A stretch of 9,537 nt of DNA from Candidatus Mcinerneyibacteriota bacterium (GTDB lineage Bacteria > AUK180 > JAQVHJ01), in NCBI GenBank assembly GCA_030630935.1, contig DAOVMD010000085.1:1-9537 (forward strand). The letters are read 5' to 3'. The notes beneath the pieces were generated by a model. That model had not been told where the DNA came from. It did no database searches and saw only the letters and a list, made by a program, of their open reading frames with translations. The position numbers were made by a program, and so were the translations under genes. Position 1 is the stretch's first letter, and the number at the start of each line of letters is the position of its first letter. This document shows, one piece after another, positions 2,514 to 9,227 of the stretch.

Positions 2514-3131
2514 ATGAAATTAAGAAGGAATATTATTAGAGGATTCACCTTAATTATTATTAACCTTGCTTTGTTAATCATTTCCAATTTAGCATATTGT
2601 TATGAATCCGGAAGTATTTTTTTTGAAAGCGAGATGGGAATTGCTAATAGTTTACGGCTAACTCTGTATGAAAAATATGATATTAATAACTATAAATATT
2701 CTTTAAGGTTAAACATTTTAAACTCAAATAAAAAATGCCCATTTGAATATTTTGAAACAAATTATGATTTTACAATTCATAATAATAAAATCTTTAAAAT
2801 AACTAAATATCGATCTCCATATATATCTTGTATTCTTTCTTACTTGTGCCCTGGTTTAGGTCAGTATTATAATGGAGAGATATTGAAAGGAGTTCTTCAA
2901 CAAACAATCATGATATTAATTATTTTTACTGCTATTAGTAATAATCATTCTGATGAAGGGGGGTATCTTTTAGCAGAATTATTTTTTGGCACTTGGTTAT
3001 GGTCAATTATTGATGCGGGTATTTCTGCAAATAGAATTAACAAACAAGCCGAATTAATTAATAGAGCAGCTTATTATAATACTAATGAAAAATGGAAAGG
3101 TAAATATCCAATATTTGTATTACGGTTTTAA
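2514..3131 (+). CDS. Exported/membrane protein with a C-terminal TM2-like domain, function unknown
   Basis: This protein is 205 residues from the ATG at 2514, or 216 from the in-frame ATG at 2481. I prefer 2514: it gives a classic signal peptide (MKLRRNIIRG, then a hydrophobic stretch to about ISNLAYC), and the predicted transcription start near 2479 would leave the upstream ATG almost leaderless. Neither start has a good SD. A polar extracytoplasmic stretch of about 70 residues with no recognisable fold follows. Next come two hydrophobic segments: the first is entered by PGLGQYYNGE and a following LKG, and the second is a WLWSIIDAG helix. The pattern PGLGQ-Y-NG...KG followed by a W..iiD helix is typical of TM2/DUF5683-like proteins, small membrane proteins of poorly defined role. 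The gene stands alone, with repeat-bearing gaps on both sides. Function is not assigned. Confidence 0.7.
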   Translation: MKLRRNIIRGFTLIIINLALLIISNLAYCYESGSIFFESEMGIANSLRLTLYEKYDINNYKYSLRLNILNSNKKCPFEYFETNYDFTIHNNKIFKITKYRSPYISCILSYLCPGLGQYYNGEILKGVLQQTIMILIIFTAISNNHSDEGGYLLAELFFGTWLWSIIDAGISANRINKQAELINRAAYYNTNEKWKGKYPIFVLRF

Positions 3132-3438
3132 GAATAAATTTTTTTTTAAAAGATAGATTGCCGCAGTCGTTTCACTCCTTCGCAATGACAATTCAGACGT
3201 TCTTAGAAAGGGAGCTTGCCCTGCAAGCAGGGTTTAAAAATGGGTGCTTTGCACCCCAGATTGCCATAGCACTAATAAATTAGTCTCCGACGCATCGCTT
3301 ACGCTTGCTAGATCTCGCTTTGCTCGATGCACAATGACAAATAAAAAGTTATCGGATAGCCTTTGTCAAAAACTTAGGAAAGATCTCGCAATGACAAAAT
3401 GTAGTTAGCTGATAATCTCATCATTTTAATTATTTTTC
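3132..3438. repeat. Mosaic of dispersed repeat fragments ('CATTGCGA...GCAATCT' family)
   Basis: No gene. Three pieces read, on the minus strand, as TTGTCATTGCGA... ending in GCAATCT or AGATCT. They are 3155-3191 (nearly complete), 3310-3341 (with CATTGTG for CATTGCG) and 3381-3398 (short). An extra AGATTGCC fragment lies at 3258-3265. This resembles a repeat seen between genes in many unrelated bacterial genomes; that is recollection, not a search result. Small hairpins intervene: GCTTGC/GCAAGC (3214-3219 with 3223-3228) and GGGTGC/GCACCC (3242-3247 with 3251-3256). GCATCG (3292-3297) pairs with CGATGC (3325-3330). A T9 run just after the preceding gene (3139-3147) lacks a G+C stem and is not a convincing terminator. 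Confidence 0.6.
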
Positions 3439-3467
3439 TTGAAAAAAATAGTTTATTGTGATATAAT
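3439..3467 (+). promoter_or_regulatory. Strong extended -10 promoter of the P-II operon
   Basis: TTGAAA (3439-3444), a 17-bp spacer, then TGA followed by a perfect TATAAT (3462-3467). This is an extended -10 with consensus -10 and near-consensus -35, the best promoter in the window. Transcription from about 3474 leaves a leader of about 14 nt before the ATG at 3488. It overlaps the TTG codon at 3467, which rules out that codon as the translation start. Confidence 0.8.
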
Positions 3468-3487
3468 TGGTAAAATGGAGTAAAGCA

Positions 3488-3877
3488 ATGACTGGAAAGT
3501 ATAAAGATCGAAAGTCGAAAGACTCGAAACAAAAAAAGATGATTATGCTTATCTGTATTTTTCGTCCTGATAAGCTTGACTTGTTTAAGCAGCTGGCAAA
3601 GAAGTTGAATATTCCAGGTGCGACTTTAACGAAAGTCCTCGGTTTCGGAAGACAGAAAGGTCATATTGAATTATTCAGAGGAGACGAATACGAAATTGAA
3701 TTTATAGAAAAGATTCGAGCTGAGATTGTAGTTTTTGAAGAGGATGTAAATGCTTTATTAGAACAGATAAGAAAACATTTAAGAACCGGTCGAATTGGAG
3801 ACGGGAAAGTATTCCTTTTCCCAATAACTGATGCAGTACGGATTCGTACTGGTGAACAGGGTTCATCAGCCATTTAA
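3488..3877 (+). CDS. P-II family signal-transduction protein (GlnB/GlnK type) with N-terminal extension
   Basis: P-II proteins are trimeric cytoplasmic sensors of ATP/ADP and 2-oxoglutarate that bind and regulate transporters, enzymes and transcription factors. This one has 129 residues. The start at 3488 is supported by GGAG at 3477-3480, 7 nt upstream, and by the promoter at 3439-3467. Residues 18-129 match the usual 112-residue core in length. The T-loop start GFGRQKGH lies at 52-59 and ELFRGDEY at 61-68. Tyr68 corresponds to the uridylylated Tyr51 of E. coli GlnB; the usual Tyr46 is Phe63. Lys75 matches Lys58. The B-loop TGRIGDGK is at 100-107 and the C-terminal VRIRTGE motif at 117-123, so ligand-binding residues look intact. 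Residues 1-17 are an unusual Lys/Ser-rich tail, encoded partly by a CGAAAG-type repeat. No amtB, glnA or glnD is visible nearby; the partner may be the GAF protein 14 bp downstream. Confidence 0.93.
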   Translation: MTGKYKDRKSKDSKQKKMIMLICIFRPDKLDLFKQLAKKLNIPGATLTKVLGFGRQKGHIELFRGDEYEIEFIEKIRAEIVVFEEDVNALLEQIRKHLRTGRIGDGKVFLFPITDAVRIRTGEQGSSAI

Positions 3878-3891
3878 AGTATAAGGGAAAT

Positions 3892-4962
3892 ATGCGCGAT
3901 TTTTTCAAGAAATTATTTAACCCAGACATTGACGAATTGAATTATACACAAAGATATAATGAAATGAGTTTAATTCTCAAAGAGATTGGGTCGGCTATGG
4001 CATCGTCAATCACGGATCTTGATGAGACCCTAAAGCTTATGGCGAATGCATTGTTAACGCTTTTGAAGGCACAGAATGTAGTGATCATTCTTTTTGATGA
4101 GGATCATAATGAGTGGGTTCCACATACAGTTGTGGGACTTGATTTTGATTCTTTCATGAGTATTTTTAAGAAATATGGAGAGAAGCTTACTTCGTTGTTT
4201 TTAGTTGATCATCCTGTAAACCTTTGTGAATTTTCGGAGCGGGATAATTTACCGAAAGATTTATTTAAGATTATAAATCGGGATAACACCTTAATTTCAC
4301 CATTGAAATTGGATAACTTATTAGTTGGTTCAATAATTGTTTCCCGTAAGACCCCGATGGAATTTTGTCATCATGATGAAGAGCTTTTAGAGATGCTTTC
4401 ATATTATGCAGCTATTACGATAGAGAATGCAATTATCCATAAGCGTGAGAAGCAGAAGACTTTAAAGCTTCAGGCGTTACGAGAGATAGATCGGATTTTA
4501 AATTCTTCCTTAAACCTTCAAGAGGTTTTAGATACTATTGTTCAGAAAGCGACTGAACTTCTACGAGCAAGTACAGGAGCAGTACTTTTAATAAATAATG
4601 AGAAGCAGGAACTTGAGATTATGTCATCGATTGGGCTGAGTAAAGAGTTTATGCATAATACCAAGTTAAAAATAGGAGAGGGTTTAACTGGCTGGGTTGC
4701 AAAGACAGGAATGCCATTATTAGTTGATGATGTTTCAAAGGATAAGAGATATTTTAAGGCGATTGAAAGTGTCAAGTCAGAGTTGGCAGTACCTTTGAAG
4801 CTTGATAATAAATTAATTGGAGTTGTCAATGTAGATAGTGACAAACCAAATACATTTACAAAAGACGACATGGAGTTATTAGCGGACTTTGCTGAGAATG
4901 CAGCCATAGCTATTAAGAATGCCCGATTATTTGGAGAGCATGACCATAAGGATTCTGAATGA
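3892..4962 (+). CDS. Tandem GAF-domain protein without output domain
   Basis: A cytoplasmic sensor-like protein of 356 residues. After an N-terminal helical region (about 1-42) comes GAF domain 1 (about 43-172), which is divergent but contains the typical core strand around SPLKLDNLLVGSIIVSRK. A charged helical linker (about 173-207) follows, then GAF domain 2 (about 208-345). GAF2 has the classic GEGLTGWVAKTGMPLLVDDV segment starting near residue 262, and SELAVPLKLDNKLIGVVNVD near 296. GAF domains bind small ligands such as cyclic nucleotides, haem, flavin or bilins; nothing here tells which. No kinase, GGDEF, HTH or phosphatase domain follows, so signalling must go through a partner. The start has AAGGGA a few bases upstream and lies 14 bp after the P-II stop. 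The stop overlaps the next start (ATGA), which indicates translational coupling. Confidence 0.85.
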   Translation: MRDFFKKLFNPDIDELNYTQRYNEMSLILKEIGSAMASSITDLDETLKLMANALLTLLKAQNVVIILFDEDHNEWVPHTVVGLDFDSFMSIFKKYGEKLTSLFLVDHPVNLCEFSERDNLPKDLFKIINRDNTLISPLKLDNLLVGSIIVSRKTPMEFCHHDEELLEMLSYYAAITIENAIIHKREKQKTLKLQALREIDRILNSSLNLQEVLDTIVQKATELLRASTGAVLLINNEKQELEIMSSIGLSKEFMHNTKLKIGEGLTGWVAKTGMPLLVDDVSKDKRYFKAIESVKSELAVPLKLDNKLIGVVNVDSDKPNTFTKDDMELLADFAENAAIAIKNARLFGEHDHKDSE

Positions 4963-5537
4963 AGAAGTTAAGGGTATTGTTAATAATTTGGGTAATTGGT
5001 TTAATATTTTTCTATAATTGTAAGACTTCTGATGAAAAAAAAGAAGTTCACAATCAGGAACTGGTCGGGATAACAAAGATAACAGAGGATTTTGATTGGA
5101 TTAAGAATCATTATTCTAATGCTGAATTTATATCTTCAGGTAAGTATAAAGACTTAAATGTATTTAATATTTTTGATGGTTCGAAGAAAGAAATCGGGAT
5201 TTTAATTTTTACTGCCCAGAACAAATTGTCCGGTGAAGGTTATAGCGGTGAGATTGACCTGGGGATTATTTTTGATTCTGATTATAAAATAATTGGAGTT
5301 GAGGTTATTGACCATACAGAGACCAGGTCTTATTTAGAGAATGTTAAAGATTCGGGTTACCTGAAACTTTTTAAAGATGTTTCCTTGAAGGAAGAGTTAG
5401 AATTCGACATGAACATTGAAGCTGTTACAGGTGCAACGATTACTTCAAAAGGAATCTTTATCGGTGTAAAAAATCTTCAAAACAAATTACAGCTTTCCGT
5501 ATCACAGCCCCCAGCATCTAACATAAAAAAAAAATAG
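4959..5537 (+). CDS. FMN-binding domain protein (NosR/RnfG-type FMN_bind), likely N-terminal half of a frameshifted protein
   Basis: A 192-residue membrane-anchored extracytoplasmic protein. Residues 5-20 form a hydrophobic segment ending at Cys21 (FYNC). This is a poor lipobox, so a transmembrane anchor is as likely as a lipoprotein. The FMN_bind domain spans about 70-180. It has HTETRSY (119-125), reminiscent of the H-x-E-T stretch in RnfG/NqrC, and EAVTGATITS (154-163), which fits the flavinylation motif (D/E)xx(S/T)GA(T/S). Thr160 is the expected site of covalent FMN attachment by ApbE. The tail turns into a Pro/Ser linker (SQPPASN) and ends IKKK-stop on ten A residues at 5525-5534. A -1 shift there continues directly into the Fe-S membrane domain. 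The start overlaps the GAF stop by 4 bases. Confidence 0.85.
   Translation: MKKLRVLLIIWVIGLIFFYNCKTSDEKKEVHNQELVGITKITEDFDWIKNHYSNAEFISSGKYKDLNVFNIFDGSKKEIGILIFTAQNKLSGEGYSGEIDLGIIFDSDYKIIGVEVIDHTETRSYLENVKDSGYLKLFKDVSLKEELEFDMNIEAVTGATITSKGIFIGVKNLQNKLQLSVSQPPASNIKKK
5525..5534 (+). other. A10 slippery tract at the FMN / Fe-S domain junction
   Basis: Ten consecutive A residues follow ACAT. In frame 0 they read ATA-AAA-AAA-AAA-TAG and terminate. Re-reading one base gives ...AAA-ATA-GAT and joins the long downstream frame. One added or two deleted A residues would fuse the two genes. Runs of nine or more A are classic substrates for transcriptional slippage and also for replication or sequencing indels, so the cause cannot be decided from this copy. 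Confidence 0.75.
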
Positions 5538-6145
5538 ATTTCACGGAATCAATTGTTTTAACCATTGTTTTCCTTGCTGCTTTGGGAGTACATTTCTTTA
5601 AGAAGGTTTGGTTGAGATATTTATTCTTAACCGGTGTAGTAATATTTTTCGGGTATATATGGACTGTTGAATTTTCGTTTTTACATTTGGGAATTATTTT
5701 GGGCGGTAAGTTTGCCGGAGTATCAATCTTTACATTGGTCTTTCTTGGACTTGTATTATTAACAGTGATATTTTTTGATCGATTTTACTGCTTTCATCTC
5801 TGTCCCTTCGGTGCATTAACAGAACTTCTACATGTAATAAGGACCCGGTTAATAAAATTAAAGAATATTAAACTTTCAAATAAATTCTTACCTGAGGTTC
5901 GGTATGTATTTACTGCTTCAGTAATTACTTATGCTGTGTTTACAAATAATTTTAACCTGGAGTTCGAACCGCACTTCTTTATATTTTTAAAGAATTTCAA
6001 TATCTTTTTAATCATATTTTCAGGATTGATTATTTTTGCTTCTTTATTTGTAAAAAGAATCTGGTGCAGATATTTCTGTCCCTGCGGATTATTTTTTGAT
6101 TTAATAATTAAAATGAAATATTCAGTAAAAAAATATTTTAAATAG
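5534..6145 (+). CDS. Polytopic membrane protein with two CxxxCP Fe-S motifs (NosR/NapH/RdhC-type), expressed only through a -1 shift or alternative start
   Basis: This frame encodes 203 residues from the A10 tract. About five hydrophobic segments are visible: ESIVLTIVFLAALGVHFF, RYLFLTGVVIFFGYIW, FAGVSIFTLVFLGLVLL, VRYVFTASVITYAVF and FNIFLIIFSGLIIFASLF. Two cluster-binding motifs follow segments 3 and 5: CFHLCP (codons 5789-5806) and CRYFCPC (codons 6065-6085). Such domains pass electrons at or across the cytoplasmic membrane, often from or to a flavinylated FMN domain. The only near-cognate start in the frame is TTG at 5582. It has no SD and would cut the first helix in half; the only ATG is near the C-terminus. 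Joined to the FMN domain the product is about 395 residues with the order of NosR and of the shorter RdhC/PceC proteins. It ends 1 bp before addB. Confidence 0.75.
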   Translation: MDFTESIVLTIVFLAALGVHFFKKVWLRYLFLTGVVIFFGYIWTVEFSFLHLGIILGGKFAGVSIFTLVFLGLVLLTVIFFDRFYCFHLCPFGALTELLHVIRTRLIKLKNIKLSNKFLPEVRYVFTASVITYAVFTNNFNLEFEPHFFIFLKNFNIFLIIFSGLIIFASLFVKRIWCRYFCPCGLFFDLIIKMKYSVKKYFK

Positions 6146-6146
6146 G

Positions 6147-9100
6147 ATGATGAAAATACATTTATTCACCGGCAGTACATATTTAGATATTCTTAATACA
6201 GAGATAATTAACGGATTAAAAAATCCTGTCTCGCCTTTTGATGTTGTCGTAATTCTTCCGTCTGTTTTAAAGTGCAGGGAGAGAAGAAGTAACCTTTTTA
6301 ACCAAGCTAATAAAAACGGTTATTTAGGTCAGGTATTCTATACATTTCATTCTTTTATAAGTCAATTTGCAGGCGAGTTCGGTTTCCTTTCTGATGACCT
6401 TGGCAAGGTCGCTCTCAGGGAAATTGTAAATAGTTCAGATTTAAAATATTTTAAAGCGGTGAAGGATTTCAATGGATTTATCTCTTCCTTACAGCGCTTG
6501 ATATTTGAGTTGGGTCATAGTGGTGTGAACCCGGATGAGTTTGAGGAAATAGTAATGAAGAGTTTTGGAACAATTTCTGATAAGCATTCAGAAATTCTGG
6601 TTTTACTAAAAGGATATGAAAAATTAAAGAAGAGTTCCGGCTTTTTTGACCGGATAGATATTTTTAATAAAGGTCTTGCGAATTTTAAGGATAAAAAAAT
6701 AAAGATTAAGAAATTTATAATGGGAGATATTTATGATATCTCACCTAATGAAAAATTGTTATTTGAAGAGTTGGTTCACAGGGCAGATGAGACTTTTATC
6801 GGAGTATTCAAACCCGAGAGATTAACCAGGACCACAAAACCTGTAATGAAATTTATTGATTATATGAAAACCTTTAATCCTATGATAAAAGATTATTCCG
6901 AAACTTCTACGAAAGCACTTTTTACTTTTTGCGAATATTTTTCAAAAGGATATTCAAGTGAAGCACCTGAGTTAAATTTAAGGGATGAGATTTATTTTAT
7001 TGAATCGTCTGGAGTTTATAACGAGATTAAACGTGTTTTTTCAATGATAAAAGAGGAACTAACTAATGGTAAGCCGATTGATGATATTGTAATCTTTTGG
7101 CGTTCATCCGATCAACTTGAAAAGGTAATAGAAAATATCTCAAATGAGTTTGGGATTCCAATTTCATTTATGAATGTTACACGGAAGGGTTCACAGTTCT
7201 TAAAATTTATTACTGAACTATTCAACCTTTTCCGAGGTGATGAGATTGAAGGATCAAAGCTATTTGAGTTATTACGGTATTCATATAGTTTTTTAAATAA
7301 GGAAAAACTTGATATTCTTGAAATTAAGATGAAGACGATGAATTATCTATTTAATGCAAAAATGATTTTAAAATTAATAGAAAAAGAAAGTGATGCAGAT
7401 TATAATGAAATTAAAGATTATATTTTAAAGATTAAAGACTATCAAGGTGAATTTCGTAAGGTAACAAATATTCAATTAAGCTTAGATTTATTTATTTCCT
7501 TCTTAGAAGATTTCGGGTTATTGACAATTGAAAATAATTTCATATATAAAATTGAAATTAAAAATTATTATTCTATTGCAAATCTTATTACTGCCCTTGA
7601 GACCTTTAGCGAATTATCCGGGAAGTATTTCTCCGGAACATATAAGCCCGGTGAATTATTCCAGATGCTTTTAAGTATTATAAATTCTGTTAAAGTTGAC
7701 GAAATTCCTGATGAACGATCCGGTCGGATTCGAATATTTGATTTTGCAGCAGGCCGGTATGTTAAATCTAAATCTGTATATATCATTCATCTTCAGGAAT
7801 CAGTTATTCCTTCTACAGGCTCGGCTGATCCATTCTTTAAAATTATAGAGAGGAAGAAGATAAACTCCATCAAGACCGGCGCATTTTACGATCGGTCCGA
7901 GAAATTTTCCAAGGAGCGGTATCTTTTTTATTTATTATTATGTTCAGCACAGAACCGTTTAGTTCTCAGTTCCTGTAAATATAATGAGGATGGGACACTA
8001 TTAAGTCAGTCTCCATTTTTTTATGAAGTAAAAAAGATCCTTCCCGAAGATTATGTTGAGAAACATAGTATAGTGATTACTCCTGATATGGTGATCCCTG
8101 AGTTTGGCGAGATATTTTCAAGAAATGATTTAACGAAGAGGGTTATATATGATCTTACAAGTAAATCAAATGAGGTATTTACATATATAGATTTGCTTGC
8201 CGGTAGGGATAAAGACGAGTTGTATAGGTTATTTAGTTTGCAGGCATTTAAATTTAATTCACGCCTCTCCGGAAAATCTCTTTTAGATTTTAATAAGTTT
8301 AAGTTTAAGATGAGTCAATCAAAATTATCTAAATATATGAAGTGTCCATTTCAATTTTTTATTACTTACATAATGCAGATTGAAAAGATTGAACTTGGGG
8401 CAACTCCATTAACCAGGGGGAATTTTGTTCATAAGCTTTTAGAAGTTTTTTATTTACAACTTCAAAGCTTAGGATACCGATTTGTGAGTGACCTGGAGTT
8501 TGAGAAAGCTTGGAAGATTTTGGAGAATTTATTTGATAATTTAGAAGTAAAATTTGCACCGGGTTACCCGGAATATTTTGAGTACTTTGAAAGAGAAAAA
8601 ACTAAGAAATCTCTTCTAAAATATCTTGAATATGAATATGATTTTGAAAAGACTTATCCGAAGTTTATCCCCTGGAAATTTGAATTGAATATCAAAAACT
8701 TTGAGATTGAAACAGGAGAAGTTAAGATGCCATTTCGAGGTATGATTGACAGATTGGATAAAAGCGGGGATTATTTTATTGTTTCAGATTATAAATATAC
8801 TAAGACTCAGACCGGTACGGTTCTTTATAACAGTATTAAGAATGGTGAGAATTTTCAGATTCCTCTTTATTTATATTACATCAAGAATAAATATGGTAAG
8901 GACCCGATTGGCGGTGAGTTGATAGGTGTTTTGACTAATAAACGCAGTACGGCATATTTAAATAATATCAATGATATTTTAGATAGACCTATTAAACAAA
9001 AACAGGTAATAGATTATAAGTTGGTAATTGATTTTTATATTAATAAGGCTGCAGGATTATACAATATGATTAATAATGGTGATTTTGAAATTGCCCCGAT

Positions 9101-9227
9101 CAATGAAAAATTGGGTTGTGACCACTGTAATTTCGAGGATATTTGCAGAGTTAACAGATTTAGAATTGAAGAGGTTACCAATATTAGAGCTGCAGATTTA
9201 AAGGATAAAGATGAACCAAAAGAATAA
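6147..9227 (+). CDS. addB: AddB-like PD-(D/E)XK nuclease/inactivated helicase subunit with 4Fe-4S staple
   Basis: This is a 1026-residue cytoplasmic protein, slightly shorter than Bacillus AddB. With AddA it forms the helicase-nuclease that resects double-strand breaks for RecA. The C-terminal nuclease is clear: His762 (VHKLLEVFY), Asp868 (GMIDRLD), Asp881-x-Lys883 (SDYKY) and Gln904 (NFQIPLY) follow the RecB-family order. Cys733 (KCPFQFF) with Cys991-x2-Cys994-x5-Cys1000 has the spacing of the AddB iron-sulfur staple. The N-terminus (LFTGSTYLD) lacks a Walker A GKT/S, so this subunit should not hydrolyse ATP there, as in RexB-type relatives. The start is ATGATG at 6147/6150, 1 bp after the previous stop and without a well-spaced SD, which suggests coupled re-initiation. 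A weak TTGATT-N17-TATTCA at 6096-6124 might also drive it. It overlaps addA by 17 bp. Confidence 0.88.
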   Translation: MMKIHLFTGSTYLDILNTEIINGLKNPVSPFDVVVILPSVLKCRERRSNLFNQANKNGYLGQVFYTFHSFISQFAGEFGFLSDDLGKVALREIVNSSDLKYFKAVKDFNGFISSLQRLIFELGHSGVNPDEFEEIVMKSFGTISDKHSEILVLLKGYEKLKKSSGFFDRIDIFNKGLANFKDKKIKIKKFIMGDIYDISPNEKLLFEELVHRADETFIGVFKPERLTRTTKPVMKFIDYMKTFNPMIKDYSETSTKALFTFCEYFSKGYSSEAPELNLRDEIYFIESSGVYNEIKRVFSMIKEELTNGKPIDDIVIFWRSSDQLEKVIENISNEFGIPISFMNVTRKGSQFLKFITELFNLFRGDEIEGSKLFELLRYSYSFLNKEKLDILEIKMKTMNYLFNAKMILKLIEKESDADYNEIKDYILKIKDYQGEFRKVTNIQLSLDLFISFLEDFGLLTIENNFIYKIEIKNYYSIANLITALETFSELSGKYFSGTYKPGELFQMLLSIINSVKVDEIPDERSGRIRIFDFAAGRYVKSKSVYIIHLQESVIPSTGSADPFFKIIERKKINSIKTGAFYDRSEKFSKERYLFYLLLCSAQNRLVLSSCKYNEDGTLLSQSPFFYEVKKILPEDYVEKHSIVITPDMVIPEFGEIFSRNDLTKRVIYDLTSKSNEVFTYIDLLAGRDKDELYRLFSLQAFKFNSRLSGKSLLDFNKFKFKMSQSKLSKYMKCPFQFFITYIMQIEKIELGATPLTRGNFVHKLLEVFYLQLQSLGYRFVSDLEFEKAWKILENLFDNLEVKFAPGYPEYFEYFEREKTKKSLLKYLEYEYDFEKTYPKFIPWKFELNIKNFEIETGEVKMPFRGMIDRLDKSGDYFIVSDYKYTKTQTGTVLYNSIKNGENFQIPLYLYYIKNKYGKDPIGGELIGVLTNKRSTAYLNNINDILDRPIKQKQVIDYKLVIDFYINKAAGLYNMINNGDFEIAPINEKLGCDHCNFEDICRVNRFRIEEVTNIRAADLKDKDEPKE

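Follow-up and report, generated by a model that had tools for sequence, protein, structure and literature searches.

Putative programmed recoding at a conserved poly-A tract between the flavin and membrane domains of an RdhC/NapH-like protein in Candidatus Mcinerneyibacteriota

RdhC/PceC proteins, the membrane C subunits of reductive dehalogenases, carry an FMN domain that follows the first hydrophobic segment and precedes the membrane module, contain two CX3CP motifs and lack a C-terminal [4Fe-4S] ferredoxin domain (PMC5928378). NapH-like flavinylated systems combine a Fer4_5/NapH-like membrane domain with an FMN_bind domain, fused in one chain in 1926 clusters and encoded by two genes in 539 (PMC8238504), and NosR/NirI proteins join FMN_bind to a membrane module with CxxxCP motifs. 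Programmed slippage in bacteria has been described for tssM (PMC4256274), for dnaX of Thermus and two-ORF dnaX genes (PMC3711429) and for IS elements (PMC1088944), in which a frame-changing tract of A9-A11 yields a short and a long product of one gene. In Citrobacter rodentium, tssM undergoes slippage at A11 with a frequency of 20-25% and both products are needed (PMC4256274). Two-ORF dnaX genes with 10 As have been reported (PMC3711429), and at a run length of A9 a large share of bacterial genomes show evident selection against slippage (PMC1088944). The gene described here shares with all these redox systems the combination of FMN_bind and membrane domains, and with RdhC/PceC the arrangement of its domains and motifs; unlike RdhC/PceC, it is broken by a -1 frame change at an A9-A10 tract. 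It also differs from tssM, dnaX and the IS elements, since it belongs to another protein family, is conserved across two families of a small phylum and is known from sequence alone.

The window, that is, the whole stretch of 9,537 nucleotides that was analysed (contig DAOVMD010000085.1 of assembly GCA_030630935.1), contains the following features of the split gene:

4959-5537, + strand: 0-frame ORF encoding a signal/anchor segment and FMN_bind, 192 aa, ending KKK-TAG (PF04205, 1.5e-13)
5019-5021, + strand: candidate lipoprotein cysteine (Cys21) that closes the hydrophobic signal segment, FFYNC
5427-5447, + strand: TGATITS flavinylation motif (motif match), with FMN predicted on the Thr of GAT, residue 160
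5525-5534, + strand: A10 tract, including the in-phase heptamer A_AAA_AAA (5528-5534), immediately 5' of TAG
5534-6145, + strand: -1 frame continuation of 203 aa without its own start codon (Fer4_5, 1e-18; homology to fused relatives)
5789-5806, + strand: first CxxxCP, residues 278-283 of the joined protein
6065-6082, + strand: second CxxxCP, residues 370-375 of the joined protein

The FMN frame runs across the tract as AAC ATA AAA AAA AAA TAG (5523-5537), and the membrane frame is open from just past TAA CAT, 5' of the A10, to the stop at 6145. The sequence thus bears out the -1 split at this tract, with an FMN ORF ending on TAG, that had been proposed in a first-pass annotation of the window. 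Joining both halves in the -1 frame, which is equivalent to A11, gives a protein of 395 aa in which Pfam recognises FMN_bind on the first half and Fer4_5 on the second, in agreement with the product of about 395 residues claimed earlier. A run of A8 gives 394 aa, and no other run length between 7 and 12 produced a long protein. Five hydrophobic segments were counted by eye in the membrane half, which ends 20 residues past the second CxxxCP. Fer4_5 is the only Pfam match of this half, and the C-terminal [4Fe-4S] ferredoxin clusters of NosR are absent; the NosR model matches residues 201-379 weakly (28 bits for a cut-off of 1000). The absence of these clusters makes the joined protein RdhC/NapH-like in architecture, so that of the NosR/RdhC likeness first proposed the RdhC part stands and the NosR part does not. 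Solved structures match the FMN domain alone (RnfG, NqrC). Around the flavinylation motif, the G-A-T-x-T-S columns are invariant in the alignment, and TGATITS is presumed, from what is known of NqrC, RnfG and PceC, to be the site of FMN attachment. A search of the window against Rfam gave no match.

Of the phylum's seven species in the genome set, six have a relative. A scan of contigs for close relatives with the joined protein as query found none, and an alignment scan found 12 loci, among them contigs of the genomes here called G001 to G004. The window's genome (G000) is an 80%-complete draft, and the comparison was made among draft genomes. G001 is the only genome of the same family that was compared and belongs to a different genus; G004 belongs to the window's class and another family, which it shares with G002 and G003, two genomes of one other genus. 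In G001 (contig JAQVHJ010000321, 3x coverage), the gene is flanked by a GAF gene and by an ORF in the position of AddB, as in the window, the AddB assignment being based on synteny and on the appearance of the translation. Its junction reads GAA CCG GAA AAA AAA AAG TAA, with an A10 at the same place and the membrane half in the -1 frame. In G004 (contig CALMGJ010000020, local GC 48%), the junction GTA AAA AAA AAG TCC CGT TGA holds an A9 and the membrane half is again in -1 (KKKVPLTESAAL). The comparison of the tract in related genomes that had been suggested at the outset therefore returned the same -1 relation in both, with tracts of A10, A10 and A9 in the window, G001 and G004. The linker around the tract can hardly be aligned, yet KKK and the A run are retained. 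Window and G001 proteins are 44% identical in the first half and 51% in the second. The G004 FMN domain (L075, within 2665-3342) also has its SGAT-like motif partly duplicated, with SVSGATRNK preceding TVTGATYTS.

The remaining genomes of the phylum present other arrangements. G002 and G003 encode the protein in a single open frame without the tract, in G006 the membrane half lies at the edge of a contig, where the junction is not readable, and no homologue was found in G005. Single-chain homologues also exist in Delongbacteria, Odoribacter, Desulfuromusa and others; the homologues from other phyla that were examined and have both domains are single frames, and no A run was seen where the junction DNA was printed. 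The fused homologues in G002, G003 and other phyla show that a single joined chain is the usual state of this protein. Because G004 belongs to the same family as the fused G002 and G003, the split was either present in the ancestor of the class, with loss in one genus, or gained on two occasions.

Any single draft metagenome assembly could give such a picture through a one-base homopolymer error, or the gene could be decaying. Both explanations, raised as alternatives in the first-pass annotation, are very improbable given that the tract and the -1 relation recur in three independently assembled species. The pattern of codon differences between the window and G001 points in the same direction: the values for positions 1, 2 and 3 are 0.42, 0.28 and 0.65 in the upstream half and 0.38, 0.21 and 0.60 in the downstream half, which indicates that both halves are translated and constrained, the second at least as much as the first. 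From whole-genome A9 counts, the probability of an A9 lying no more than about 6 nt from a given sense position was estimated at approximately 2-5e-4 per genome, a rough figure that ignores a possible favouring of lysine codons before a helix. As a control, 42 distinct tracts of at least nine As were inspected in G004, drawn from 50 of its 62 A9 positions; seven lie in long frames and all seven are read through, which also argues against error, and the split flavoprotein gene was the sole credible interruption among the 42. Two other candidates for a split at A9 in this genome were discarded, one because a long open frame occupies the opposite strand and the other because it lies at a gene boundary. 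Nearly all of the 38 distinct tracts of at least ten As in G000 fall outside long frames, and the genes interrupted were the split flavoprotein and two copies of a transposase-like gene. One copy is broken at an A10 (G000:C282, around 1514-1523, L126) with its downstream frame in +1, and the second, at a contig end, is broken at another A10 (G000:C103, around 11478, L088). Slippage-dependent expression is common in insertion sequences, and these interruptions may reflect either such expression or decay.

The two halves might instead be separate genes, the membrane half being made by ribosomes that reinitiate where the FMN ORF ends. A separate gene for the FMN protein is found in 539 of 2465 NapH-like flavinylation clusters (PMC8238504), and G004 has a TTG that shares bases with the TGA ending its FMN frame. 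At the junction of the window and of G001, however, there is no ATG, GTG or TTG but only ATA, ATT or GTA codons. The sole ATG, GTG or TTG near the front of the window's membrane half is the TTG at 5582, inside its first hydrophobic segment, just as the initial description of a downstream frame without a usable start had maintained, and in G001 the first one lies about 48 residues into the membrane half. A second gene with a real start, which had been named as an observation that would count against a split protein, is thus conceivable in G004 and has no candidate start in the other two. Reinitiation would also leave the conserved A tract without a role, and it is judged improbable.

The interpretation that best accounts for these observations, with a probability of about 0.78, is that one gene gives rise to two proteins by programmed recoding at the conserved A9-A10 tract between its two domains. 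Standard decoding would end at the tract or at most two codons beyond it and would yield a short exported FMN_bind protein, probably tethered to the membrane through a lipid anchor of its own. In some events, most likely through transcriptional slippage that adds one A to the mRNA, the FMN domain would be joined to the downstream helices, giving a flavin/Fe-S membrane electron carrier of about 395 residues with RdhC/PceC-like architecture. The recoding itself, its assignment to transcription and not to translation, and the role of the short form are inferences. That three species share the tract and the -1 relation argues strongly for the slippage reading advanced in the first-pass annotation, with the slippage step standing as its conjectural part. 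Several points count against it: the split is present in three species only, two genomes of the same class have a fused gene without the tract, the window's genome is 80% complete, the G001 contig has 3x coverage, G004 has the TTG, and no ApbE was found in G000.

The long form could also arise if the ribosome slipped by -1 on the in-phase A_AAA_AAR heptamer, which is found in all three split genes with a stop immediately after it or two codons on: A_AAA_AAA then TAG in the window, A_AAA_AAG then TAA in G001, and A_AAA_AAG in G004, where TGA comes two codons later. This heptamer makes both transcriptional slippage and ribosomal frameshifting possible, and A_AAA_AAA and A_AAA_AAG are listed among ribosomal slip sites (PMC3711429). 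Folding of the 100 nt 3' of the tract revealed a stable structure in G001 alone (z -3.07), which is what ribosomal frameshifting would call for, whereas the fold was weak in the window (z -1.6) and at chance level in G004 (z -0.5); a downstream hairpin or fold shared by the three split genes was sought and not found. Inspection of the region near the tract showed no Shine-Dalgarno-like element. The lack of a common fold and of such an element favours transcriptional slippage, and a tract of 9-10 As exceeds what the heptamer would need and attains the A9 length under selection against slippage noted above (PMC1088944). From these sequence features, transcriptional slippage is provisionally ranked first and ribosomal frameshifting, which is somewhat unlikely, second.

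An A10 is also prone to slippage during replication, and the same tract would be required if the gene were a phase-variable switch that toggles the full-length protein on and off between cells. Such a switch, which had been suggested earlier, finds little support in the three assemblies. Under it, some species should show an in-frame tract or one of the other out-of-frame class; instead, all three fall in one out-of-frame class and none is in frame, an outcome with a chance of 1 in 9 if lengths were random, which weakens the case for it. Tract length has remained 9-10 despite divergence of the proteins to 44-51% identity or less, and the product is an electron carrier in a predicted P-II/AddAB operon, not a surface antigen. 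Phase variation is accordingly quite improbable.

Under the preferred reading of programmed recoding, the short product is of interest in itself. Its signal segment ends in a Cys in all three split genes (FFYNC in the window, IFYNC in G001 and LVSC in G004), which suggests a lipid anchor, with a canonical lipobox in G004 and not in G000 or G001. The short FMN-domain product is therefore probably lipid-anchored, and not the soluble FMN half envisaged before. In the three species it would carry the TGAT/SGAT flavinylation motif. ApbE (PF02424) is present in six other genomes of the phylum and was not found in the 80%-complete G000, which has two FMN_bind proteins; its gene probably lies in the missing 20% of that genome. 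At roughly even odds, the lineage uses conserved poly-A slippage to fix the proportions of a lipid-anchored FMN carrier and a full transmembrane flavin/Fe-S carrier encoded by one and the same gene. Unlike in known NapH-like systems, a single locus here appears capable of producing the FMN domain on its own as well as fused to the membrane half.

When a metagenome assembly shows a gene split at a homopolymer, the split is usually put down to error or to a pseudogene. That this split is kept across genera and families suggests that automatic annotation may hide a redox protein that is functional in its full length. None of the open papers searched reported recoding in this flavoprotein family, and PMC3711429 makes no mention of FMN. 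If programmed recoding is true, programmed poly-A recoding among cellular genes would extend to an electron-transfer family; the locus would represent such recoding inside a membrane redox module, and a natural link between the one-chain and two-gene NapH-like forms. The ratio of free to membrane-tethered flavin domain set by slippage would offer a testable case.

The neighbourhood of the gene consists of the following features:

3439-3467, + strand: promoter-like site TTGAAA-17-TATAAT with TG before the -10, 11 of 12 matches, the best site in 3300-6300 by consensus match only
3488-3877, + strand: P-II-like regulator gene (PF00543, 3.5e-22), a neighbour conserved in G001
3892-4962, + strand: GAF-domain protein gene (GAF, 2.2e-31), whose stop overlaps the next start (ATGA)
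6147-9227, + strand: AddB-like helicase-nuclease gene (profile match), followed by AddA from 9211

The GAF protein of the window and that of G001 are 76% identical in amino acids, and the gene order is the same. These neighbours, together with one strong promoter-like site, suggest an operon rather than a dedicated respiratory cluster, and the site at 3439-3467 is the likely start of a predicted P-II/GAF/split flavoprotein/AddB/AddA operon. Unlike RdhC/PceC, the gene has no adjoining dehalogenase gene. Neither the reductive dehalogenase PF13486 nor NosZ (nos_propeller) gave a match in five genomes, in searches that had no positive control and are not proof of absence. Beside the P-II gene of G001, at a contig end, L033 (G001:C431, around 3419-3615) contains short tandem repeats that translate as FTVYRLPFTVYRSPFTV. 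In the window, a PHO4-family phosphate/sulfate permease gene (919-1956) stands alone, 5' of a gene-poor stretch at around 1960-2480.
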